From IMG/VR virus record IMGVR_UViG_3300025853_000580, positions 1-25,581 of that record: a stretch of DNA of 25,581 nt. One strand, given 5' to 3'. Made by a program: the position numbers and the translations under genes. Under the pieces are notes generated by a model that saw only the letters and a list, made by a program, of their open reading frames with translations, had not been told where the DNA came from and made no database searches. Shown here piece after piece: positions 1,367-23,677 of this stretch (the first letter of the stretch is position 1; each line of letters begins with the position of its first letter). This stretch comes from a virus.

Positions 1367-1611
1367 CACCAGCACAAGAAGAGTTATTGGCGAAACCGCA
1401 ATGGTATTCAGGAATTAAAAGATCATGGAGCCCAGCCGATCTTCGGGAAGCTTACGAGCTGCACAACAGACTGACCGGGCAGAATAAAAGTGATAGTGGT
1501 TGCAATGCCTGCAGACGAGCCGTTATCCAGACACTACAACATCAGTATCAAATAGCATTAAGACAAAAACAAAGTGAAAATGAAGGAAATTTGGGTACCA
1601 GTAAGTACTAA
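1363..1611 (+). CDS. small CxxC protein, 82 aa
   Basis: A charged soluble protein with a central GCNACRR motif (about residues 46-52) after SWSPADLREAYELHNRLTG. A similar arrangement occurs in short Bacteroidota phage proteins of unknown function encoded near the small terminase. The last ~11 residues are read through the start of the HNH gene at 1580, in a different frame, so the original C-terminus may have been altered when that gene inserted. The start ATG overlaps the preceding stop by 4 nt. A single CxxC pair is too few for a classical zinc finger unless the protein dimerises. Confidence 0.65.
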   Translation: MTPAQEELLAKPQWYSGIKRSWSPADLREAYELHNRLTGQNKSDSGCNACRRAVIQTLQHQYQIALRQKQSENEGNLGTSKY

Positions 1612-2059
1612 CGAATTGTACGAAGTTAGTAATCTCGGCCGAGTTAGGTCTTGGAATAATCACGGTAAAAACCCGCGGAGTAAACCAAAAATTTTATCCC
1701 AAACCGACAAGGGAGGATACAAATACGTGCATATAAATAAAAATACTAAAGCAAATGCATATACTGTACATCGGTTAGTTGCAAAAGCTTTTATACCAAA
1801 CCCAGATAACAAACGTACGGTTAACCATTTGGATAAGAACAGAGGTAATAATCACGTAGAAAATTTAGAGTGGACTACTCATTCTGAAAATGAAAGACAT
1901 GCAAAGGCAATAAAAATTACACTTACTAAAGACGAAGTTGTTAAACGCTTTGATTGTTTAATAGATGCTGCAGATTTTTTAGGTGTACATAGAGCTAATA
2001 TTAGCAAATTAAGACGCGGCAGAGTTAAAACCGTTTACGGCTGGGCTATGTTAAAATAA
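1580..2059 (+). CDS. NUMOD4/HNH homing endonuclease
   Basis: A 159-residue free-standing homing endonuclease. The N-terminal NUMOD4 module is clear (WVPVSTNELYEVSNLGRVRS, about residues 4-23). An HNH_3 nuclease core follows: HRLVAKAFIPNPDN, then VNHLDKNRGNNHVENLEW with the metal-binding His and the Asn pair intact. The C-terminal third (FDCLIDAADFLGVHRANISKL) resembles a NUMOD1-type DNA-binding helix-turn-helix. ATG 1580 is preferred over GTG 1574, because paralogs start close to the EIW/EMW motif. Its codons are more AT-rich than those of its neighbours, which fits an invading element. It is wedged between the CxxC protein and the small terminase candidate. Confidence 0.9.
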   Translation: MKEIWVPVSTNELYEVSNLGRVRSWNNHGKNPRSKPKILSQTDKGGYKYVHINKNTKANAYTVHRLVAKAFIPNPDNKRTVNHLDKNRGNNHVENLEWTTHSENERHAKAIKITLTKDEVVKRFDCLIDAADFLGVHRANISKLRRGRVKTVYGWAMLK

Positions 2060-2070
2060 CAAACTAAATC

Positions 2071-2370
2071 ATGCCATTCGAAAAGGGAAATACATTAGGA
2101 CAGGGTCGACCTAAAGGAAGTCCAAATAAAACGACCAAGGAAATTCGGGACGCCTATAAAAAACTATTAGAGGATAACCTAGACAACATGAGCATTTGGC
2201 TGGCCGATGTAGCCGCGGATGATCCAAGGCAAGCTATCGATCTTATGTTAAAGCTTAGCGAGTATATCTTACCCCGTTTAGCCCGCCAAGAAATCACGGG
2301 CAATGACGGAGAGGATCTATTCAAGAACATTCAATTTAAATTCCAAACACCAGACTCAGATGCCGACTAG
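2071..2370 (+). CDS. probable terminase small subunit (DUF5681-like)
   Basis: 99 residues. The N-terminus has the pattern of DUF5681-type proteins (GQGRPKGSPNKTTKEIRDAY, about residues 10-29), a basic DNA-binding segment followed by helices (KLLEDNLDNMSIWLADVAADDP). Proteins of this type often lie just upstream of the large terminase and are treated as small terminases that recognise the packaging start. Here only one small ORF separates it from the large terminase. The ATG is 12 nt after the HNH stop. The family resemblance is good, while the packaging role is inferred from position. Confidence 0.7.
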   Translation: MPFEKGNTLGQGRPKGSPNKTTKEIRDAYKKLLEDNLDNMSIWLADVAADDPRQAIDLMLKLSEYILPRLARQEITGNDGEDLFKNIQFKFQTPDSDAD

Positions 2371-3887: not shown

Positions 3888-3908
3888 CTCGGCAAGTAAC
3901 CCAAGAAA

Positions 3909-3917
3909 TATATTTAG
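3909..3917 (+). promoter_or_regulatory. candidate promoter element TATATTTAG
   Basis: It lies in the 48 nt gap between the terminase and the tail genes, beginning 27 nt before ATG 3936. The same nonamer precedes genes at 16989 and 19936 at 26 nt. It matches the Bacteroidota -7 box TAnnTTTG except at the last base. No TTG is found at the expected upstream spacing. An AAGGA at 3926-3930 could act as a weak ribosome binding site. Confidence 0.45.
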
Positions 3918-10365: not shown

Positions 10366-12582
10366 ATGGCTAAAAAGACCAAGGACATAGAATTTAGGGT
10401 TAAGGTTATTAACGAGAGCGGCGATGTTGTTGAAAAAACAGTAAAGAACATTAATGACCTAGAGGAAGCCTTAAAAGGAACTCAGGATGCCTTAAAGAAC
10501 GCAGATATTGGCAGCGCTAAATGGAAAGAACTTAACTCAGCTGTTGAACAAAACGCGAAAGCTTTAGGTAAAGCCAGCTCGGCGGGTAAAGGTCTAGGAG
10601 ATCAGTTCTCTGCTATCCCCGGCCCGATAGGACAGGTTGCTCAAGGGGTTAAGGGTTTAGGTACAGCCTTTAAAGCTCTAATAGCCAACCCAGTCGGTCT
10701 TATCCTAGCAGCTATAGCAGCAGCTTTAACCACGCTCTATAAGGCTTTCACCTCTACTAAAGAAGGAGCCGAGAAGATGGAGCAGGTCTTCGCTGGTGTT
10801 GGTGCTGCTATAGATGTATTACGAGACCGGGTACTAAAAGTAGGCGGTGCTATAATTAAATTCTTTAAAGGAGATTTTGCTGGTGCTGCTGAAGACGTTA
10901 AAGGTGCTTTTACCGGTATTGGTGAGGAGATAGCTGGTGAATTTAACCAAGCGATGGCTCTTAAAAAAGAACTCCAAGCTATCGATGATGCTACTAGGGA
11001 ATTAAACAATAGCCGGGCCGAGCAGAATAAACTTATAGCCGAGGCTAAGCTTAAGATTAACGACGAGAATCTAAGTTACGAAGATAGGCTATCAGCCCTA
11101 GAAGAGGTAAGGGAAGCAGAGATTAAACTCGCCAAGCAAGAGGAAGAACTAGCTCTAAGAAGATACGAAGCTATTAAAGCCCAGAACGCTCTAAGCGATA
11201 GTTCTGCAGAAGCCTTACAGGAAGAAGCCGATGCTTACGCGGCTTTACAGAACGCTCAGCTCGCCTCTTTCCAGAAACAGAAGGAACTCTTCGACCAGGA
11301 GAAAGCTCTTCGTGATAAAGCAAAAGCCGAAAGAGAAGCAGCAGCGAAAGCAAAACAAGCTATCGACGACCAGATCAGAAAAGCTGAGCAAGAGAACCTG
11401 CTGGCCTCTATAGAAGACGAAGAAGAGAGAGCGAGGAAAGCAGCGGAGATACAGCTATCCGAGCAGATGCTAGCTATCGACAGACTAGAGGCATCTACGG
11501 AGCAAAAGAATAAACTGAGAGAAGAGGCCGAGGAAAAGTATCAGCTCGCGGTTAAGGCTATAAATGATAAAGCTGAGGCGGATAGACAAAAGAAAGAAGA
11601 AGAAGCCAAAAAAGCCAAAGAAGAGGCCGATAAGGAAGAGCTGGCCAAAGCTCAGGAAAAAGCAGATCTTCTTAAGACTATCCGGGAGGCTACAGCTACT
11701 ACAGAAGAAGAGGAAAGACAACTAGAGATAGAAAAGATACAAGAGTACTACAATAAACTTATTGAAGAAGCCGAAGCTTTTGGTCTAGACACTACAGCCC
11801 TAACAGAAGCTAGGAATAACGCTGTCGCCGCCAAGAATAAAGAGCACCGAGAAAAAGATGTCGCTGATGAAATAGCAGCAGAGCGTCAAAAGCTAGAAGC
11901 AAAAGCAGATATCACAAAGCAAAGCTTAGAAACTGTAGCAAGCTTAGTAACGGCTTTTGCTGCAGATAACGAAAAAGCACAGAAAAGAGCTTTTAATGTT
12001 CAGAAGGGTGTTAATATAGCAACAGCTACTATCGACACCTACCTTGCAGCAACTAAGGTACTATCGGCGGCATCAGCCAACCCAGCCACCATACTATTCC
12101 CAGGTTACCCAGCACTACAAGCTGGACTTATTATAGCTGCTGGTCTTGCTAACGTGGCAACTATAGCTAAACAACAATTCCAACCAGCTGGTGGTGGCGG
12201 AGGCGGAGATGCTGGAGGTGGCGGCGGAGGTCCAAGACCTTCTAAGTTTGCTAACGGTGGTTTACTTGAAGGTCCCTCCCATTCTCAAGGAGGTATAAAG
12301 ACTAATTTAGGAGAACTAGAAGGCGGGGAATATGTAGTTAATAAGGAGTCAACTAAGAAAAACTTTGAGCTACTGGAGAAAATAAACAGCATGAAGGTTT
12401 CTCCTATAAACTCGTTTGATCACGAAAGATTAAAAGCCGTGACAGGTATTCTGAGAGAACACGATAAAGGAATTATGTCAGGATCTAAGGAAACCCCAGT
12501 TATGAAAACCTATGTAGTAGCCTCCGAGGTAAGTTCACAACAGGAAGCGGACAAGAGAATCTCAGATTTGGCAAGACTCTAA
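10366..12582 (+). CDS. tape measure protein
   Basis: Sets tail length and sits inside the tail tube before DNA ejection. 738 residues. An N-terminal helical region is followed by a strongly hydrophobic segment (NPVGLILAAIAAALTTLY, about residues 108-126), a long highly charged coiled coil (about 190-530, Glu/Lys/Ala-rich), a second hydrophobic stretch (QAGLIIAAGLANVATIA, about 585-600) and a Gly-rich linker near 609-625. The C-terminal segment (FANGGLLEGPSHSQGGIK, then LEGGEYVVNKEST) is typical of tape measure proteins in Bacteroidota phages. At the usual ~0.15 nm per residue this suggests a tail of about 110 nm. The length is modest but complete. Confidence 0.9.
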   Translation: MAKKTKDIEFRVKVINESGDVVEKTVKNINDLEEALKGTQDALKNADIGSAKWKELNSAVEQNAKALGKASSAGKGLGDQFSAIPGPIGQVAQGVKGLGTAFKALIANPVGLILAAIAAALTTLYKAFTSTKEGAEKMEQVFAGVGAAIDVLRDRVLKVGGAIIKFFKGDFAGAAEDVKGAFTGIGEEIAGEFNQAMALKKELQAIDDATRELNNSRAEQNKLIAEAKLKINDENLSYEDRLSALEEVREAEIKLAKQEEELALRRYEAIKAQNALSDSSAEALQEEADAYAALQNAQLASFQKQKELFDQEKALRDKAKAEREAAAKAKQAIDDQIRKAEQENLLASIEDEEERARKAAEIQLSEQMLAIDRLEASTEQKNKLREEAEEKYQLAVKAINDKAEADRQKKEEEAKKAKEEADKEELAKAQEKADLLKTIREATATTEEEERQLEIEKIQEYYNKLIEEAEAFGLDTTALTEARNNAVAAKNKEHREKDVADEIAAERQKLEAKADITKQSLETVASLVTAFAADNEKAQKRAFNVQKGVNIATATIDTYLAATKVLSAASANPATILFPGYPALQAGLIIAAGLANVATIAKQQFQPAGGGGGGDAGGGGGGPRPSKFANGGLLEGPSHSQGGIKTNLGELEGGEYVVNKESTKKNFELLEKINSMKVSPINSFDHERLKAVTGILREHDKGIMSGSKETPVMKTYVVASEVSSQQEADKRISDLARL

Positions 12583-12587
12583 AAAAG

Positions 12588-12596
12588 AATATTTAG
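12588..12596 (+). promoter_or_regulatory. AATATTTAG element, short-spacing class
   Basis: It lies in the 18 nt gap after the tape measure gene and begins 13 nt before ATG 12601. The element at 24381 has the same 13 nt offset. It is too close to the start for an ordinary leader, so it may drive a leaderless or near-leaderless transcript or simply be an AT-rich translation leader. Confidence 0.3.
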
Positions 12597-14053: not shown

Positions 14054-14224
14054 ATGAATAAAGAACAAACATTAGGGATAATCAGACACTTCTTGTCTGG
14101 TTTTGGCTCGATTGCTATCTACAAAGGTTGGATTGACGAGTCTACTATGCTAGAGTTACTGGGTGGGGTCATGACGATTGTGTCGTTTGCCTGGTCAGCG
14201 CTATCTAAAAAAAAGGAAGACTAA
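14054..14224 (+). CDS. holin-like small membrane protein, 56 aa
   Basis: A short gene starting at ATG 14054 and ending at TAA 14222-14224. The pattern (TLGIIRHFLSGFGSIAIYKG, then LLGGVMTIVSFAWSALSKKK) matches small phage holin-like proteins of the Pam3 gp28 type: an IRH motif, a first hydrophobic helix, a G-W-I/S turn, a second helix ending in W-S, and a Lys-rich tail. Holins form lesions in the inner membrane to time lysis. It starts 17 nt after the protease stop in an A-rich leader, and its end overlaps by 4 nt the end of the convergent HNH gene. No endolysin adjoins it. Confidence 0.7.
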   Translation: MNKEQTLGIIRHFLSGFGSIAIYKGWIDESTMLELLGGVMTIVSFAWSALSKKKED

Positions 14225-14715
14225 TCTAGGTGTTTCCAGTATTTGCGATTACAGATATAGCGAATATTGGTTGAACTAACCGGATAATCAAGGGCGATTG
14301 CTACATAGCTTTCGCCTTTTTTTCTGCGAGCCCGTATAGTTCTCACGTCATCTTCGGTTAATATTGCTCTTCCATTAGAGATCCCCCTAGGTATATTTCG
14401 GTTGTGATTTTGTTCCTTGGTCGTTACCCACCGTAAGTTAGTAACTACATTATTAGTTGAATTACGGTCTATATGATCTACCTGGGGTAAGTTATCTGGA
14501 TTAGGTATAAAGTATGCAGCTACTAGTTTATGTACATACATGCTTTTTTGCTTACCATTTATAGAGGCTCGAAAGATAAAATACCCTGTTTCTTTTTTAT
14601 ACAACTTTAGAAACCTAGGTCTACCGAACTTACTGCTTAACACTCGGCCGTGATTAGAAATATAGTAATCAGGTGCCTCGGCTATAGGAAGCCACATCTC
14701 TTTTAATTCTTCCAT
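14221..14715 (-). CDS. NUMOD4/HNH homing endonuclease, reverse strand
   Basis: The only minus-strand gene in the window, 164 residues. NUMOD4 module: EMWLPIAEAPDYYISNHGRV (about residues 6-25). HNH core: VHKLVAAYFIPNPDN followed by VDHIDRNSTNNVVTNLRW, with the active His and Asn residues intact. The C-terminal segment (LTEDDVRTIRARRKKGESYV) looks like a helix-turn-helix for site recognition. It shares the FIPNPDN motif with the other two intact copies. It sits between the holin-like peptide and the scaffold candidate, in opposite orientation to all neighbours, so it is likely expressed from its own promoter in the 14716-14785 gap. Confidence 0.9.
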   Translation of the reverse strand: MEELKEMWLPIAEAPDYYISNHGRVLSSKFGRPRFLKLYKKETGYFIFRASINGKQKSMYVHKLVAAYFIPNPDNLPQVDHIDRNSTNNVVTNLRWVTTKEQNHNRNIPRGISNGRAILTEDDVRTIRARRKKGESYVAIALDYPVSSTNIRYICNRKYWKHLD

Positions 14716-14752
14716 GCTTTATCTATTAGGAAATGTCACATCGCAATATACG

Positions 14753-14760
14753 TATACTTA
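14753..14760 (+). promoter_or_regulatory. possible promoter region for the scaffold/capsid genes
   Basis: The 70 nt gap between divergent starts (14715 minus, 14786 plus) must supply signals for both sides. TATACTTA at 14753-14760 resembles the other elements; its spacing to ATG 14786 (33 nt) is longer than elsewhere. A poly-A tract and CTTTGTATC immediately precede the start. Confidence 0.3.
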
Positions 14761-15415: not shown

Positions 15416-16297
15416 ATGGGATTTTCATTATCAACCCTTAGTTCATTTACCCTAGAAGATTCGGGTATTTTGATCCAGAAGGCCGTCTTGGGAGCGGACC
15501 TTGTTGACTATATCGACGTTCGTCCTGGTTACCCTGAAGCAACTGTAGCTGTTAACGTCTTGGGCGGAACGGCAGATTTCCAAAATTCATCTTGTGGATG
15601 GACCTCAGGCGGTTCTACCAACTTCACCCAAATTTCAATCACTAACTCAGCTAAGTCTTGGAAGCAGTCTCTTTGTCTCGAGGACTTGAGAGCTTACTGG
15701 TTGTCAACTCAGTTGGATTCTTCAGCTTACGGAGAAAATCTACCTTTCGAGGAGGCTATCTCTAATTACATGGTTGAAGAGTCAAGAAAAGCTGCTGAAG
15801 CTGTTATCGGCTCTCAGATCATCAGCCAGGTTACAGTATCGAATGGAGCCTCCCAGGGGGCTACAGCTGCTTTCACTAGCTCTACTGCTTACGCTAAAGC
15901 TCTACAAATGATCGACGCTTTGCCATTGTCAGTTGCTAACAGAGACGACTTGATGATGTTCATGAGCTACGCTTCTTTCAGAGCTCTTATGACCAACTTG
16001 GTTGCTCTTAACTTGTACCACTACGCTCCTGGAGTTACAACTGGAACTGGTCTCGGCCAATCAGTAGTTATCCCTGGAACTAACATCACTGCTATTCCAG
16101 TCGGCGGATTTGGTACTTCTAACCGCGTCATCTGCGGTCCTGCTAAGCACATCATAATGGTATGTGGCTTGGTTGAAGACACAGATAGAATCGACGCTTG
16201 GTGGTCACGTGATAACCAAGAGATGAGACTCATCGCTAAGTTCACCAACGGTGTTGGAGTTCTTGTTGAGGAATTCTCTACTAACGACTTAGCTTAA
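15416..16297 (+). CDS. probable major capsid protein (HK97-fold)
   Basis: 293 residues, beta-rich, without enzyme motifs. Features typical of capsid proteins of this phage group include a helix with a conserved acidic start (LPFEEAISNYMVEESRKAAE), a middle segment with AYAKALQMIDALP, and a C-terminal beta region (HIIMVCGLVED, DAWWSRDNQEMRLIAKFTNG). It follows the scaffold candidate by 33 nt with an A-rich leader (AAAAAAAACTTAAACT) and no Shine-Dalgarno. Its codon choice differs from the neighbours: 12 of 26 leucines are TTG by my count, and GCT dominates alanine, as expected for a very highly expressed gene. A hairpin follows the stop. Confidence 0.8.
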   Translation: MGFSLSTLSSFTLEDSGILIQKAVLGADLVDYIDVRPGYPEATVAVNVLGGTADFQNSSCGWTSGGSTNFTQISITNSAKSWKQSLCLEDLRAYWLSTQLDSSAYGENLPFEEAISNYMVEESRKAAEAVIGSQIISQVTVSNGASQGATAAFTSSTAYAKALQMIDALPLSVANRDDLMMFMSYASFRALMTNLVALNLYHYAPGVTTGTGLGQSVVIPGTNITAIPVGGFGTSNRVICGPAKHIIMVCGLVEDTDRIDAWWSRDNQEMRLIAKFTNGVGVLVEEFSTNDLA

Positions 16298-16367: not shown

Positions 16368-16892
16368 ATGCCCTGTTCATTAACACAAGCAATAGCTTTA
16401 GATTGTATCGATAGCATTGGCGGTATTAAAACTGCATATGTTGGGGTTGATATTGTGTTTTCTTCAGTGAGTTACGATGCTAACAATCAGATCACTGGAG
16501 CGACAGGAACTGGAACGTTCTATCAGTACGAATTACCAAAAAACACTGCGAATTTCGTAGAGACTGGTAACATTTCTGAAACCAACGGTACTGCTTTCTA
16601 TTCACAAGCTTTGACTTTCAACTTGCAGAAACTATCTGCCGATAAGAGAAACCAACTTCTACTCCTATCTAGAAACAGAGACATCAAGATTATCTTCCAA
16701 GATAACAACGATAAACTCTGGTTGGTAGGTAAAGATCGTGGCGGTGTCACTACCGCTATGAGTGCTAACACTGGTACAGCACCTGGTGACGCTAATAACT
16801 ACGTTATGACCGTTACTGCTGACGAGCCAGAAATGGCTTACGAGATCGACGCACTTACTTCTCTAAGCGGATTTACTATCACAACAGCCTAA
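16368..16892 (+). CDS. probable major tail tube protein
   Basis: 174 residues. The opening (MPCSLTQAIALDCIDSIGGI) and the pattern that follows (YELPKNTANFVETGNISETN, then FNLQKLSADKRNQLLLLSRN, IFQDNNDKLWLVG) match a conserved Bacteroidota phage structural protein generally considered the tail tube subunit. The C-terminal strand block (NNYVMTVTADEPEMA) is also typical. The leader is A-rich (AAAAAAATAAATTTAAC) without a Shine-Dalgarno sequence. It lies after the capsid gene rather than next to the other tail genes. The gene ends at a strong terminator. The tube role is family inference and not certain. Confidence 0.65.
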   Translation: MPCSLTQAIALDCIDSIGGIKTAYVGVDIVFSSVSYDANNQITGATGTGTFYQYELPKNTANFVETGNISETNGTAFYSQALTFNLQKLSADKRNQLLLLSRNRDIKIIFQDNNDKLWLVGKDRGGVTTAMSANTGTAPGDANNYVMTVTADEPEMAYEIDALTSLSGFTITTA

Positions 16893-16913
16893 CACACAAA
16901 AAGGCTAACTTTA

Positions 16914-16944
16914 GGAACCGGGGTTAACGCCCCGGTTTCTTTTT
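16914..16944 (+). terminator. Rho-independent terminator, copy 1 of a duplicated cassette
   Basis: The stem AACCGGGG / CCCCGGTT (16916-16923, 16930-16937) is extended by G-U and G-C pairs at its base, with a TTAACG loop, then TCTTTTT. The same hairpin with a compensatory G-C to A-T change occurs at 19848-19878. Confidence 0.9.
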
Positions 16945-16971
16945 GTCAGATGATTGAGTTTTTATATTTAG
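16943..16971 (+). promoter_or_regulatory. candidate Bacteroidota-type promoter, copy 1
   Basis: TTG at 16943-16945, 17 nt spacer, TATATTTAG at 16963-16971, and the GTG start 26 nt from the beginning of the box. This fits the known TTG / TAnnTTTG promoter of Bacteroidota apart from the last base. The -33 element overlaps the terminator T tract. The same layout recurs at 19890-19918. Confidence 0.6.
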
Positions 16972-16988
16972 ACATAAAAGGATCTTAA

Positions 16989-17471
16989 GTGATTACACTA
17001 ACGCCAAATACAACCAATACATTCGTGATCTATGTAGACACCATAGACAACGAGGTACAGACATTCGGTGACTATTTTCTATTTGGATTTCAGAATGGGT
17101 TTACTAGAGAATGGACGTATGTAGTACCCACTGTATTAACCCGCAATACGAGATACCTTAAGTTCGAAATTACGGTAACCCCCAACACGGTAGACGACCC
17201 GTTAAATGGTTCAGTATATTTAGCTCCATCTGGTAACTGGGACTATAAACTATGGAACACCCAGACAGCAACGCTTAACCCCGCATCTGGTGATTTACTA
17301 GACGAGGGTCAGATGTCTCTAGAAGACTTAACCCCGGCCGAGGTTACCTTTACCCCTTACATAAGTAACAACGAGAAATTATCTTCTTATGTCTACTACT
17401 CTGCTAATGGAGTTTGGAACACTACTCAAAACGTTTGGGATGCTTACCAAAAATTATGGCAGCAAGCTTAA
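16989..17471 (+). CDS. virion-associated protein of unknown role, 160 aa
   Basis: Beta-rich, with many aromatic and Thr/Asn residues (TFGDYFLFGFQNGFTREWTY, then KFEITVTPN, WDYKLWN). It ends in a Tyr/Trp/Gln-rich segment (YYSANGVWNTTQNVWDAYQK). The beginning (ITLTPNTTNTFVIYVDT) resembles small structural proteins that accompany tail or decoration genes in Bacteroidota phages. The start is GTG at 16989; no ATG precedes the conserved-looking strand, and it lies at a fixed distance from the promoter-like box. An AAAGGAT seven bases before the start may help ribosome binding. No specific function can be given. Confidence 0.7.
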   Translation: MITLTPNTTNTFVIYVDTIDNEVQTFGDYFLFGFQNGFTREWTYVVPTVLTRNTRYLKFEITVTPNTVDDPLNGSVYLAPSGNWDYKLWNTQTATLNPASGDLLDEGQMSLEDLTPAEVTFTPYISNNEKLSSYVYYSANGVWNTTQNVWDAYQKLWQQA

Positions 17472-17475
17472 AAAT

Positions 17476-17484
17476 TATACTTTA
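17476..17484 (+). promoter_or_regulatory. possible promoter-like element TATACTTTA
   Basis: It sits in the 30 nt gap before ATG 17502 and begins 26 nt upstream of it, the same offset as the TATATTTAG elements, but has one extra base before the TTT. No upstream TTG is evident. Confidence 0.25.
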
Positions 17485-17501
17485 AAAAAAATAACACGAA
17501 T

Positions 17502-17792
17502 ATGGCTAACCCCACTCCTCAAGAATCATGGAACTCTGACGTTGTACTAGAAGTTATAGCGAAAGAGCTACAGTACGCTAGCCCTAATAATGCTGAACTA
17601 ATTACTCCCGGATCTGCTTTAGCCTCGGGCGTTACTAACTTCAGTCTATTGCTTTCAGCAGCTGCTACTGTTACCTGTACTCCTGTTGGTGCTACTGGCG
17701 CTATCGCTTTGTCGCTTCCTTCAGGATATAATCCTATCAGGGTCTCTAGCGTGACTACAGTTTCTACTGGCAGCGCCTGGGCACTTTACTAA
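17502..17792 (+). CDS. small virion protein, possible spike-base or decoration protein
   Basis: 96 residues. The second half (TVTCTPVGATGAIALSLPSG, then YNPIRVSSVTTVSTGSAWALY) resembles the short beta domains of phage spike-base or head-decoration proteins, in which an Ala/Leu-rich strand is followed by a PIRV-type strand and a terminal aromatic. It has a GATG tetrapeptide like other virion proteins here. The leader is A-rich, with no Shine-Dalgarno. The next gene begins 15 nt after its stop. The fold similarity is from memory and short, so the role is tentative. Confidence 0.6.
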   Translation: MANPTPQESWNSDVVLEVIAKELQYASPNNAELITPGSALASGVTNFSLLLSAAATVTCTPVGATGAIALSLPSGYNPIRVSSVTTVSTGSAWALY

Positions 17793-17806
17793 AAAACTAA
17801 AACCCA

Positions 17807-19522
17807 ATGCTGAATCTTAACCTTAACACTATAAGTACAATTTTAGGGGCACCAGCAGCGGGTCCCACGCCACCACCTATTCCGGTGGTTAATTTTAGTG
17901 CTTCTACTACAGGACCAAATGCTGGAGATACTGTAGATTTCACAGATCTTTCTACCAACTCACCAAATTCTTGGCTTTGGTCATTCCCTGGTGGTACACC
18001 ATCTAGCTCTACTCTACAGAACCCGAAGATCACCTACGGTTCAACTGGATCTTACGATGTTACACTACAAGCTGGAAACACAGGCGGTACTGGTTCTCTA
18101 ACTAAGTCCAACTACATCAACGTACAAGCAGCCTGGACCCCGGCAGACTTTAACAACGTGGTTTACTGGTGGAACACTAGCTACGGTGTTACCGAATCGG
18201 GCGGAGCAATTACAGCTTGGCAGGATGAATTGCTAGGTGAGACACTAACTAACTCTGGTGGTTCTGGTATGACCTACACGGCCACGGATCCACAGTTCAA
18301 TAACCAGCCATCGCTTTATCAGGATACAACTAAGTCTACCCTTGTAAACAGTGGTCTTACATCTTACATCTGGCCAGATCCTTATGTAGACTATTGTCAG
18401 ATCTACATTGTAAAACCAGAAACTAGCTCAGGTTGGGCTATAGTCGGTGGTAACACTGCTATTAGCGGAGCAGGAGAATTGATAGCAGCTCAAGGTACAA
18501 CCTCTGTTAGCAACGAATATGGGGCTTACACCTTTGCATCTGGTACTGGTACTGTAATAGATTCAGGCTTACCTATAAAGAACGAGCTGGCTTATCTCTT
18601 AGTTCAGAAAACCGCTGCTGGGAATATTGAGATTAAAGTTAGTAAGGACACAATCTTCAAAAGCTTTGCTCTTGGAGGTAGAGTTATAGATTCTAACCCA
18701 TATAAGATAGAACTCGGGGGTTATACCAATTCACTGAAACCTAAAGGTTACATCTTAGAAGCTATCTACATAGACGGTATTCCTTCTAATGCAGAACTCA
18801 CTAACTTAGCAACCTACATTAACAATAAGTACGGCCCGCTAAATGATCCTTGTCCTTCTACTTTGATTAGCACTACGGATCTTTGGTCTTACTACAAATT
18901 CGATACAGGTGGTACTGGTTTAACCCACGACTACTCAGGTCAGGGTTACACGCTAACTAACAACGGTGTCGGAGCTACAGCGGGTATCTTCAGCGGTGGT
19001 GCTAACTTCGACGGTACTGGTTATATGACTTCAGCAACCGATCTTGGTCTAGAGCCATTCTTAGGTTCAGTAGGTTGGACTCTTGCTACTTGGGTGTCTT
19101 TAAATGATCTTACTCAAAGTCAGACCATTTACCATAAAAGAAGGGTTTCTCCATCTCCCCAAGGTACAAAAGTACGACTTGATCCTCAATTAGGAGCTAT
19201 TTTGGTTACTATGACAGGATACAGTATGAACTTTACCTACCCTGTTGGTAAATTTGTAGACGATAGCTGGCACCATGTAGCTGTTACCTGGGACGGAAGC
19301 AACGTCAGATGTTATGTTGACGGGGTTAATACCGGTACTACAGCAAGGTCTACCTACAATAACGCTACTACTATACCACTCAACATCGGTAGAGATGAAG
19401 TAAACAATAACCAGTATTTAGATGGTAGACTCGAAGAGTACATCATCTATCGTAACAGAGATATAGGCGCTACCGATATAGCAGCTCTAGCGGCAGGTAC
19501 ATGTCCACTAACAAATCCATAA
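17807..19522 (+). CDS. PKD plus LamG-like adhesin, virion-displayed
   Basis: 571 residues. A Pro-rich linker (GPTPPPIPV) precedes a PKD domain at about residues 27-107: VNFSASTTGPNAGDTVDFTD, then SWLWSFPGG and YGSTGSYDVTLQA. Two concanavalin/LamG-like regions follow. The first (about 108-345) contains WWNTSYGVTESGGAITAWQD. The second (about 355-565) has the LamG_3 pattern: LWSYYKFDTGG, GIFSGGANFDGTGYM, WTLATWVS, WHHVAVTWDGSNVRCYVDG, and a final DGRLEEYIIYRNR. Such domains bind carbohydrates and are often displayed on phage capsids or fibres. It is probably a receptor- or mucus-binding adhesin. Confidence 0.8.
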   Translation: MLNLNLNTISTILGAPAAGPTPPPIPVVNFSASTTGPNAGDTVDFTDLSTNSPNSWLWSFPGGTPSSSTLQNPKITYGSTGSYDVTLQAGNTGGTGSLTKSNYINVQAAWTPADFNNVVYWWNTSYGVTESGGAITAWQDELLGETLTNSGGSGMTYTATDPQFNNQPSLYQDTTKSTLVNSGLTSYIWPDPYVDYCQIYIVKPETSSGWAIVGGNTAISGAGELIAAQGTTSVSNEYGAYTFASGTGTVIDSGLPIKNELAYLLVQKTAAGNIEIKVSKDTIFKSFALGGRVIDSNPYKIELGGYTNSLKPKGYILEAIYIDGIPSNAELTNLATYINNKYGPLNDPCPSTLISTTDLWSYYKFDTGGTGLTHDYSGQGYTLTNNGVGATAGIFSGGANFDGTGYMTSATDLGLEPFLGSVGWTLATWVSLNDLTQSQTIYHKRRVSPSPQGTKVRLDPQLGAILVTMTGYSMNFTYPVGKFVDDSWHHVAVTWDGSNVRCYVDGVNTGTTARSTYNNATTIPLNIGRDEVNNNQYLDGRLEEYIIYRNRDIGATDIAALAAGTCPLTNP

Positions 19523-19526
19523 CAAG

Positions 19527-19811
19527 ATGAGTATATTAGATTCTATAACAACACCAGAAGTCTTAGGGGTTACCGAAGGTATGTCCCAGGCAGAGATTAA
19601 CGCCTACTTTGTAGCTCAGGGATATTCTGAGACTGGCCCGGACAGTTTTGAGAACGGACCATATAGGTATGAGACTACCCCGGAGCAGTTAAGTTATTTC
19701 TATGATGAATGGGTCTCCGTTATATTAAACGTGAGTATAGCAGATGAAGCTTACTTAGCTTACTGGATACAGAAAGAAATAGACGAGTCCCAAAATCAGC
19801 CAACGCTATAA
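19527..19811 (+). CDS. hypothetical acidic protein, 94 aa
   Basis: An acidic protein with no membrane segment. Visible features are a helix-turn start (MSQAEINAYFVAQGYSETGP), a Tyr/Pro stretch (NGPYRYETTPEQLSYFYDEW) and a terminal helix (EAYLAYWIQKEIDESQNQ). The ATG lies 4 nt after the adhesin stop, so it is almost certainly translated with it, and a terminator closes the unit after it. A chaperone for the adhesin is conceivable from position alone. I do not recognise the family. Confidence 0.65.
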   Translation: MSILDSITTPEVLGVTEGMSQAEINAYFVAQGYSETGPDSFENGPYRYETTPEQLSYFYDEWVSVILNVSIADEAYLAYWIQKEIDESQNQPTL

Positions 19812-19847
19812 CCCTCCGTCTCATCTAGAGATGTCTCTATATAGCTA

Positions 19848-19878
19848 GGAACCGAGGTTAACGCCTCGGTTTCTTTTT
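19848..19878 (+). terminator. Rho-independent terminator, copy 2 of the duplicated cassette
   Basis: AACCGAGG / CCTCGGTT (19850-19857, 19864-19871) with the same TTAACG loop and TCTTTTT tail as the hairpin at 16914-16944. The one-pair difference is compensatory (G-C there, A-T here). The preceding ~35 nt after the stop at 19811 contain only a small AGAGA/TCTCT inverted repeat. Confidence 0.9.
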
Positions 19879-19889
19879 GTGTACTGCTA

Positions 19890-19918
19890 TTGTCAGAAAT
19901 CCCATTTTTTATATTTAG
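19890..19918 (+). promoter_or_regulatory. candidate Bacteroidota-type promoter, copy 2
   Basis: TTG (19890-19892), 17 nt, TATATTTAG (19910-19918), then the GTG start 26 nt from the beginning of the box. Spacing and box are identical to copy 1 at 16943-16971, and TCAGA also follows TTG in both. Confidence 0.6.
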
Positions 19919-19935
19919 AGAAAAACATCTAACCA

Positions 19936-20853
19936 GTGGATTTAACTAATACAAGAATACAGAATACCTACGGTGGAGTAATGAACGTGGGTGCTACTGG
20001 GTTTAACGAGAACTTTCAACGAATTACCGACGGTTTTGGTAACCCCATGCCTCTCGAGGCATCAACAAGCGGGGTTAACTTCACTGGGAATATTTACGTC
20101 AACGGTGTTACAGGTCTTATCGGATCTTCAGGTACCTCGGGTACTTCAGGTGTAAACGGTCCTACTGGCGCTACCGGTGCTACCGGACCACAAGGTGCAG
20201 ACGGAATTTCGTCAGGTAAAAACTACTTCTTTAACATTCAAGAATACGGAGGGGTTACTGGATATCATCTACTAGGTACAACGCCAAATGGAAGGGATGA
20301 GGCTACACTAAATCTAACGTTACCCGGCGGGGCTACAGGTTACATCGATCTTTACATTACTGGAGAACTAGGATTTACCACTATCCCAGCGGGTGTACAA
20401 GATTTTAGTATCTTCCTGGAATTACCTACAGAAAACTCCGATATGGACGCCTACGTAGAATTAGAACTAGCTAACTCTGCCGGTGTAGGTTACGGAACTA
20501 CTATTACGACCAATACCCAAAAGATAGGATGGGTAGAAGCAGGTGTACCTTTTAGAACAGAGCTTACAGCGGTGTTTAACCAGACCACTATCAATACTAC
20601 GGATCGGATGATCGCTAGGATCGTGGTACACAACCAAGACGCTACCTCTAGGACAGCGACCTTGTATTCGCAAGGTAATTCTTTCTACTCTTTCGTCAAT
20701 ACCTCTATCGGGGTAACGACATCTAAGTTTGTGTCTAACGAAAACGACATCTATGCTAGTACAGCTGCTGTTCAATACGTTATTACACTAACACAAGCAG
20801 AGTATGACGCTATCGTATCTCCGCAAGCAAATACACTGTATGTCGTGATATGA
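19936..20853 (+). CDS. tail fibre-like protein with collagen-like segment
   Basis: 305 residues from GTG 19936. The N-terminal module (TRIQNTYGGVMNVGATGFNE, then DGFGNPMPLEAST; about residues 4-45) is shared with the protein at 21764 and probably anchors both to the virion. A collagen-like Gly-X-Y segment (residues 63-90) forms a flexible or trimeric stalk. A beta-rich head follows (DLYITGELGF, FSIFLELPTENSDM, TATLYSQGNSFYSF). The last residues (YVITLTQAEYDAI, LYVVI) form an ending common in phage fibre and structural proteins. It overlaps the next ATG by 4 nt. The role is probably host recognition. Confidence 0.75.
   Translation: MDLTNTRIQNTYGGVMNVGATGFNENFQRITDGFGNPMPLEASTSGVNFTGNIYVNGVTGLIGSSGTSGTSGVNGPTGATGATGPQGADGISSGKNYFFNIQEYGGVTGYHLLGTTPNGRDEATLNLTLPGGATGYIDLYITGELGFTTIPAGVQDFSIFLELPTENSDMDAYVELELANSAGVGYGTTITTNTQKIGWVEAGVPFRTELTAVFNQTTINTTDRMIARIVVHNQDATSRTATLYSQGNSFYSFVNTSIGVTTSKFVSNENDIYASTAAVQYVITLTQAEYDAIVSPQANTLYVVI
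20122..20205 (+). repeat. collagen-like Gly-X-Y repeat coding segment
   Basis: 28 residues (63-90 of the fibre protein) in which Gly recurs about every third position, with GTSGTSG and GATGATG blocks. The DNA has short direct repeats of GGCGCTACC/GGTGCTACC. Such tracts form trimeric stalks in phage fibres and can vary in length by recombination. Confidence 0.75.
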
Positions 20854-21767
20854 TAAAGCTTAACGCAGAAACGGTAACCAATCTTTATCTCGGCGGAGCG
20901 AATGTTCAGGCTGCCTGGCAAGGTGTAGTAAAGGTTTATCCAGCTACCGGAGCAACCGGCGGTTTACCCCCAGGTAGAAATGCTTACTATCAGTCTATTC
21001 TAAATATAGGCGCTCTAAATGGCTACACCTTACCTAGCCCGGCCCAGCAAGATCTACAAAATAACTTACTACAAGAACTAGTAAATCAAGGGATATGGGA
21101 TAAACTGGATGTATTCTATGTCTTCGCCAACGACGGATCCAAAGAGTTTGGTAACCTAAACTGGAAAGATCCAGGAGCATATGAGTGTACTACTTCTGGT
21201 TCCCCGTTATGGACTGCTGACCAGGGATACACAGGTTTACCTGTTTCTACTACTTATGTAGACACAGGCTTTAATGTAGGAGCTACGAGCTCTAAATTCA
21301 GTAGTGGGGACGCCAGTTTATTTGCTTACGTGTACAACGATATACCTAACAATACCTACGGAGATATCGGACTGATAGAGCAACCCCCTTACACAGGAAT
21401 ACAATGGGGAGCAATTAACTCTAGAATGCCAGCGATAGGTGCTCTTAACAGCAGAGCAGAATACAACCTACTAGATACGTCAACTTATCCTTTCTGGACT
21501 TCGGATGTACCAACCTCTGTAGGTTTCTCCCATGTAGATAGATCTAACTCTACTCAGATTAAGTTCTACAAAAACGGTACACTGCTAAATACTAGATCGG
21601 CTACTCAGACAGCCATGCCTTCTACACTAACACTACAGTTCTTACGCGGTAGACTTGCCGCCGATTATTCAGCCAGGACGGTTTCGATAGGCGGTGTAGG
21701 TTCTTCGCTAACTACAGAGGCAAATGCCTTTTACACCGCTATAAATACTTATATGACTTCGATATGA
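20850..21767 (+). CDS. probable adhesin / tail fibre-associated protein
   Basis: 305 residues. The N-terminus (IKLNAETVTNLYLGGANVQAAWQGVVKVYP) follows the pattern of phage structural proteins that begin with a short beta module ending in VYP. A PATGATGG linker then precedes the main domain (about residues 42-305), which is rich in Tyr, Ser and Thr with motifs such as FYVFANDGSKEF, LFAYVYNDIPNNTYG and IKFYKNGTLLNTRS, plausible for a carbohydrate-binding jelly-roll. No enzyme motif is seen. It overlaps both neighbours by 4 nt (ATGA), forming one translational unit of three virion proteins. Confidence 0.65.
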   Translation: MIKLNAETVTNLYLGGANVQAAWQGVVKVYPATGATGGLPPGRNAYYQSILNIGALNGYTLPSPAQQDLQNNLLQELVNQGIWDKLDVFYVFANDGSKEFGNLNWKDPGAYECTTSGSPLWTADQGYTGLPVSTTYVDTGFNVGATSSKFSSGDASLFAYVYNDIPNNTYGDIGLIEQPPYTGIQWGAINSRMPAIGALNSRAEYNLLDTSTYPFWTSDVPTSVGFSHVDRSNSTQIKFYKNGTLLNTRSATQTAMPSTLTLQFLRGRLAADYSARTVSIGGVGSSLTTEANAFYTAINTYMTSI

Positions 21768-22060
21768 ATTTAGAAAATCAACAAATCAAAAACACCTACA
21801 CAGGGGTACTTAATATCGGCGCTACAGGTATGAGTGATATCTGTGCAGAAGTAACAGATGGAGCTGGTAACAACCTAGGTATACAGGTGTGTAACTGCTG
21901 TACTAAGTTTACCAAGGCGAATATCTTCGCAGCAAATCTACCTGGCCCCTATACAAGCGACGCGGATTTTTATGGTAACTACTCTGGCGCTACAGCGGGT
22001 CAATTATACTTAATAACAAGCGGCGGCGTTACTAGCGTTACTGTAGCAGGAAATAACTAA
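21764..22060 (+). CDS. short virion protein sharing the fibre N-terminal module
   Basis: 98 residues. The start (NQQIKNTYTGVLNIGATGMSD, then DGAGNNLGIQV) is clearly related to the N-terminus of the fibre gene at 19936. It is followed by a Cys cluster (VCNCCTKF, about residues 42-49) and a short domain ending in a beta strand pair (GQLYLITSGGVTSVTVAGN). It looks like the anchor module with a minimal distal domain in place of a full fibre. The Cys cluster recalls the repeats of the large tail protein. The start overlaps the preceding stop by 4 nt. It ends 5 nt before the portal gene. Confidence 0.7.
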   Translation: MNLENQQIKNTYTGVLNIGATGMSDICAEVTDGAGNNLGIQVCNCCTKFTKANIFAANLPGPYTSDADFYGNYSGATAGQLYLITSGGVTSVTVAGNN

Positions 22061-23215: not shown

Positions 23216-23677
23216 ATGGAAATTTGGAAAGACATAAAAGGATACGAAGGTTACCAGGTAAGTAACTATGGGCGGGTAAAAAGTCCTAACAAGATTCTCA
23301 CTGCTACTCCTAAAGGTACTGGCTATTTTACGGTGAATATTGCTCAACAAAGAAAGTATATTCACAGGTTAGTAGCTGAAGCTTTTATACCTAATCCTGA
23401 TAATCTACCCACGGTAGATCATATCAATAGAGATAAGTCGGACAGCTCTGCAAAAAATCTGAGATGGGCAACCCAAAAAACCCAGATAGAAAATCGCAGA
23501 GATATGAGTGGGGAGAAACATCCAAATTATAAATTCGACGAGTATGTGGTTAAAAAAATACTCAGACTTAAAAAAGCGGGATACAACGTAAGCGAAATCT
23601 CAAGAAAAACCGGAGCAAGCACACGTACCGTAATTAGAAAATTAGAAAAATATTATGCCGAATCCTCCAATCAGTAA
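23216..23677 (+). CDS. NUMOD4/HNH homing endonuclease
   Basis: 153 residues. NUMOD4 module: EIWKDIKGYEGYQVSNYGRV (residues 2-21). HNH core: IHRLVAEAFIPNPDN then VDHINRDKSDSSAKNLRW; the catalytic His is present, although the NN of the other copies reads DS here. The C-terminal helix-turn-helix (ILRLKKAGYNVSEISRKTGA) probably recognises DNA. It lies between portal and adaptor genes, and the adaptor start is inside its last 23 nt, so removal or insertion at this site must preserve that start. Its composition is more AT-rich than its neighbours. Confidence 0.9.
   Translation: MEIWKDIKGYEGYQVSNYGRVKSPNKILTATPKGTGYFTVNIAQQRKYIHRLVAEAFIPNPDNLPTVDHINRDKSDSSAKNLRWATQKTQIENRRDMSGEKHPNYKFDEYVVKKILRLKKAGYNVSEISRKTGASTRTVIRKLEKYYAESSNQ

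Follow-up and report, generated by a model that had tools for sequence, protein, structure and literature searches.

The window analyzed here is the whole 25,581-nucleotide stretch of the IMG/VR record IMGVR_UViG_3300025853_000580, a contig from an uncultured tailed phage that carries terminase, tape measure, portal, and fiber-like genes. The junction hairpins, the promoter sites, the sigma-like gene, and the ORFs from the capsid gene to ORF E described below lie on the plus strand. A major capsid protein-like ORF (15416-16297; no named family) is followed by a tail-tube-like ORF (16368-16892), which matches phrog_19091, a family of unknown function, and is kept in all relatives; the capsid and tube genes were assigned by gene order. 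Downstream are ORF A (16989-17471, 160 aa), conserved and with no assigned function, ORF B (17502-17792, 96 aa), present only in the window's subclade, a variable block comprising ORF C, with PKD and LamG domains, and ORF D (17802-19814), and the fiber-like ORF E (19936-20853), with collagen-like and Phage_tail_C domains. ORFs E and G have an N-terminal stretch of ∼50 aa in common (19936-20100 and 21764-21920); relatives retain this stretch although the remainder of E differs among them, and it is perhaps a virion-anchoring domain. Interspersed among the phage genes are three ORFs (1574-2059, 14221-14715, and 23216-23677) that visual inspection and their similarity to one another mark as HNH-endonuclease-like; the second of these is antisense, and its start adjoins the scaffold promoter described below.

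On the basis of the portal and tube proteins, the nearest catalogued relatives infect Bacteroidota (Nonlabens phage P12024S and phages of Bacteroides and Parabacteroides). The start codons of the window have no evident Shine-Dalgarno sequences, which is usual in Bacteroidota (PMC6847099). A bacterial genome collection searched with the capsid protein (MCP) yielded no relatives and thus no host via a prophage, and the junction 1 DNA had no similarity to catalogued phages. Judged by its protein relationships, the phage group appears to be of a Bacteroidota type, and it is previously undescribed in the literature searched. Relatives (given L and G numbers) were collected via the capsid protein, and four divergent contigs, with capsids 30-38% identical, were added through a sigma-like gene.

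Two junctions interrupt the virion genes. At junction 1, directly after the tail-tube-like gene, a hairpin with a T-tract of intrinsic-terminator-like form (16913-16944) is followed by promoter 1 (16944-16970; TGTCA at 16944-16948, N15, and ATATTTA at 16964-16970) and then by ORF A. Junction 2 has the corresponding hairpin 2 and T-tract (19847-19878), promoter 2 (19891-19917; TGTCA at 19891-19895, N15, and ATATTTA at 19911-19917), and ORF E. An earlier note on this DNA had described the two as copies of a single module, and its coordinates were correct, with the hairpins at 16913-16940 and 19847-19874. Both copies have TTG, 17 nt, and then TATATTTAGA (16963-16972 and 19910-19919), and GTG codons at 16989 and 19936 each lie 26 nt from the start of that box. 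The relevant likeness is a 35-nt stretch common to both hairpins in which 33 positions are identical (94%, 2 mismatches; blastn within the genome, E = 4e-9); the longest exact repeat shared within the window is 16 nt, which is not above chance. The two copies are thus real, but they do not form a single rigid unit, because copy 2 carries ∼10-12 extra nt (TGTACTGCTA) between the T-tract and TTG. The GTG starts, also pointed out in the earlier note, are present in both units but are incidental, because the orthologues in other lineages begin with ATG. Assembly error is ruled out by contig L018, which was assembled independently from another metagenome, represents this phage with identity over 7603 bases, and includes both copies. 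A GTCTCTATATA-like sequence at 19815-19846, just ahead of hairpin 2, is also present in L006 and L003.

All lineages examined have a hairpin at the place of junction 1. A strict scan detected one, together with its T-tract, downstream of the tube gene in 12 of 14 lineages, and folding revealed it in the other two (G024 and G026); when 200 random sequences were scanned for each lineage, 0-4 had such a hairpin. It is also seen at this place in P12024S and the more distant L019-L028 when the printed sequences are inspected by eye. Its form, a GC-rich hairpin and then a T-tract, is that of an intrinsic terminator. The stems and loops are unrelated among lineages (AACCGGGG/CCCCGGTT in the window, AGGACTAG-GAAA-CTAGTCCT in L011, and GGCCGGGA/TCTCGGCC in G018), and their occurrence at one orthologous place indicates that the structure of the tube-gene hairpin is conserved. 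Selection on the RNA structure had been proposed from a single compensatory pair between the stems of the two copies. That change from G-C to A-T is real but weak when taken alone, and the unrelated stems argue far better for a selected structure than the single pair does. Among the five closest hairpins, orthologous and paralogous, 100% of cells were paired and two pairs had double changes; shuffles matched this in 37 of 500 cases, so these counts agree with a selected structure but alone are not strong.

The element following each hairpin, recorded previously as TTG-TCAGA and TATATTTAGA, is predicted to be a phage-family promoter, TGTCA-N15-ATA[CT]TTA, belonging to a conserved late set. In 15 stretches totaling ∼295 kb, the gene strand had 30 occurrences of this motif and the opposite strand had none, and spacings from 10 to 22 other than N15 gave at most one match each. 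Restricting the second box to ATATTTA left 19 sense and 0 antisense sites (0.025 expected), and the [CT]GGCA variant at N15 was found at 11 sense and 0 antisense sites. All of the TGTCA sites listed sit 3-45 nt before an ORF start, and the motif recurs before the same genes, namely, the scaffold/capsid operon, ORF A (after the tail-tube gene), the portal gene, and, in some lineages, fiber gene E. Two conserved boxes at a fixed spacing, on one strand, and ahead of structural genes are as expected of late promoters for a phage-encoded sigma factor.

At least three strong sites are present in the window (14734, 16944, and 19891). The site not yet mentioned (14734-14760, TGTCA-N15-ATACTTA) lies before the scaffold/capsid operon without a preceding hairpin and has an orthologous site in L003, L007-L017, G018, G022, and G024. 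Matrices trained without the window, whether near relatives were included or not, ranked the two junction promoters and the 14734 site first in the window; these three scored 22.5, 21.7, and 16.1, compared to 3.9 for the best minus-strand site and 14.6 for the best of 100 shuffled windows; promoter 1 was the top-scoring site of the window with a matrix from other phages. Weaker candidate sites precede ORF 3936 (3890-3916, CGGCA-N15-ATATTTA), ORF 12601 (12569-12595, TGGCA-N15-ATATTTA; orthologous in L010 and G022), and ORF 17502 (17457-17483, TGGCA-N15-ATACTTT). In the sigma-bearing divergent contigs, the motif is present with ATACTTA or ATATCT as its second box; the latter is found in the G024 promoter. 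At the portal genes of G022, G026, and G018, the promoter box is just 3-6 nt ahead of the first start codon, and such distances imply nearly leaderless mRNAs and count against the promoter reading. A literature search, with most subscription papers outside its reach, returned no description of this phage group or of such promoters in Bacteroidota phages.

A candidate reader of these promoters is encoded at 621-1112 (163 aa, TTG start), where PHROG matches, the predicted fold, and orthologues point to a sigma-factor-like protein. The matches to PHROG sigma families were weak (E = 4e-4 and 1e-3), a Pfam search gave no sigma model and a weak TrmB-type HTH, and a PDB sequence search with this ORF gave nothing useful. 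The AlphaFold model, obtained from a shallow alignment, had a pLDDT of 77 and a low pTM of 0.47, and its fold matched ECF sigma factors with a middling Z of 8.6. In this predicted fold, residues 1-84 match RpoE (5uxx_C, Z 8.5, 3.0 Å over 77) and residues 95-163 match the C-terminal part of a sigma factor (3mzy, Z 8.3, 1.9 Å over 68), again with middling Z values. By predicted fold alone, the protein would thus have the domain content of an ECF sigma factor, with regions 2 and 4, no region 3, and a low-confidence linker. Orthologues with 45-61% identity and an invariant region-4 stretch, IPRTSISL, were found in 9 of 9 divergent lineages whose contig covers the place of the gene (the window, G003, G004, G006, G008, G018, G022, G024, and G026). 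All nine also carry the promoter, a co-occurrence that is confounded by the shared ancestry of the lineages. The product of ORF 621-1112 most likely reads the TGTCA-N15-ATA[CT]TTA promoters. A further terminator-like hairpin (540-572) lies just before this gene and is followed by a different, non-TGTCA region. In the distant relative L033, the sigma-like gene (1492-2369, minus strand) is seemingly split into two adjacent ORFs, one with a region-4-like part.

The same junctions could instead be read by the host primary sigma factor, sigma-ABfr of Bacteroidota, with or without a phage activator on TGTCA, in which case ORF 621 would be an unrelated helix-turn-helix protein, as its weak TrmB-type match might suggest. 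The TTTG and the AT-rich -7-like box TATATTTA of the phage sites do resemble the host consensus (-33 TTTG/-7 TAnnTTTG; PMC6847099). The near-invariant G of TAnnTTTG is, however, replaced by A at the matched sites, so that TATATTTA does not conform to TAHHTTTG, and no TAHHTTTG box was found within 120 nt upstream of the window genes. Moreover, real Bacteroidota promoters have a weak -33 box (PMC6847099), whereas TGTCA is near invariant at a rigid spacing, and the structures matched by ORF 621 are whole sigma factors. We therefore regard reading by the host factor as unlikely. For the hairpins, conservation of structure with variation of sequence would also fit a role in protecting mRNA 3' ends or in setting their processing, with little termination. 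This role is improbable in our judgment, as nearly all lineages have a T-tract immediately behind the stem, often with a promoter right after it, which is how a terminator is classically arranged.

The earlier note had proposed that the module is a portable insulation cassette allowing each adhesin block to be expressed or swapped on its own. In an extended form of this idea, the duplicated module would bracket fiber blocks and act as a homology arm for their exchange. The block of ORFs C and D is indeed replaced in L006 (17802-19814) and in L003 (∼17795-19886). Hairpin 2 begins 32 nt past the point where the L006 replacement ends on the right, and this closeness, together with the 94% identity of the two hairpins in one genome, speaks for the proposal. 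The left edge, however, is at 17801, the boundary between genes B and C, and lies 0.8 kb downstream of copy 1. Of the two copies, it is copy 2 that marks an exchange edge; the pair does not bracket the block, and the module flanks this variable block on its right side and not on its left. Many copies of the family promoter occur without a hairpin, and at junction 1 of L008 an insertion of ∼380 bp splits the hairpin from the promoter; the parts of the module are therefore separable. The note had also staked the idea on paired copies in relatives, and no relative beyond the window's subclade (the window, L018, L006, and L003-L005) has hairpin 2. The cassette idea is largely refuted as stated, and we consider exchange by such a unit very improbable. 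The order of terminator then promoter, and the separation of virion-gene units that it would bring about, are supported by the relatives.

The results are consistent with both copies being terminator-promoter junctions at which the virion genes are divided into late operons of their own, probably under the phage ECF-like sigma factor, and we hold this reading with good confidence. The layout would be scaffold, capsid, and tube genes, stop; start, ORFs A, B, C, and D, stop; start, ORFs E, F, G, the portal gene, and onward. Each hairpin with its T-tract would end the upstream transcript immediately ahead of the -35 box that follows. Polymerase from the strong capsid operon would thereby be kept from running over and occluding the downstream promoter, and the level of each operon could be set by its own promoter. 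Recognition of the family-wide promoter by the product of ORF 621-1112 would join the operons into one late regulon, with all of them turned on together late. With somewhat less assurance, we favor the broader view that this Bacteroidota-type phage group carries a self-contained late system, in which an ECF-like sigma factor and an orthogonal TGTCA-N15-ATAYTTA promoter serve all virion operons in place of the host TAnnTTTG, with terminators set against the -35 box at conserved places. The analysis provides a clear, testable late-transcription map for an uncultured phage group, and the comparison of relatives allows a conserved regulatory device to be told apart from what looks like a duplicated cassette. 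Should the pairing of sigma factor and promoter prove true, Bacteroidota, in which Escherichia coli promoters do not function, would gain a compact orthogonal promoter system.

Several known systems resemble this arrangement. In phages phiEco32 and 7-11, a phage sigma factor has dedicated middle/late promoters that precede structural genes (PMC4331800). The window phage shares with them a predicted phage-encoded sigma factor and a repeated, predicted phage-specific promoter before structural genes, found by intergenic comparison; the phiEco32 consensus is TAATGTATA, whereas the window phage has two boxes with a rigid N15 and belongs to another phage group. Among cultured phages, Nonlabens phage P12024S (NC_018271, Inhavirus) is the nearest relative in its portal and tube proteins and, like the window, has a terminator-like hairpin after the tube gene. 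Its gp33, annotated as sigma-70 region 2, precedes the terminase gene and so has a relative position like that of ORF 621; gp33 was rejected as a direct relative, with no detectable sequence similarity. Unlike the window, P12024S has a portal protein that is only 25% identical, is without TGTCA-N15-ATAYTTA, and has another repeated box. This box, TTTTCGTTA-[AC]-TATA..ATGAA, occurs at 163, 3015, and 23945 (L034), in each case with the start codon of a gene at its end, and is perhaps the late promoter of that phage. The hairpins themselves are like intrinsic (Rho-independent) terminators in their predicted GC-rich stem, short loop, and T-tract, with which a gene block closes at its 3' end, but unlike the usual ones in that the junction 1 T-tract abuts the -35 box of the next promoter. 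Terminators adjoining promoters are ordinary in phages. This type of device is already known, and what is new is its members in an undescribed Bacteroidota-type phage group.
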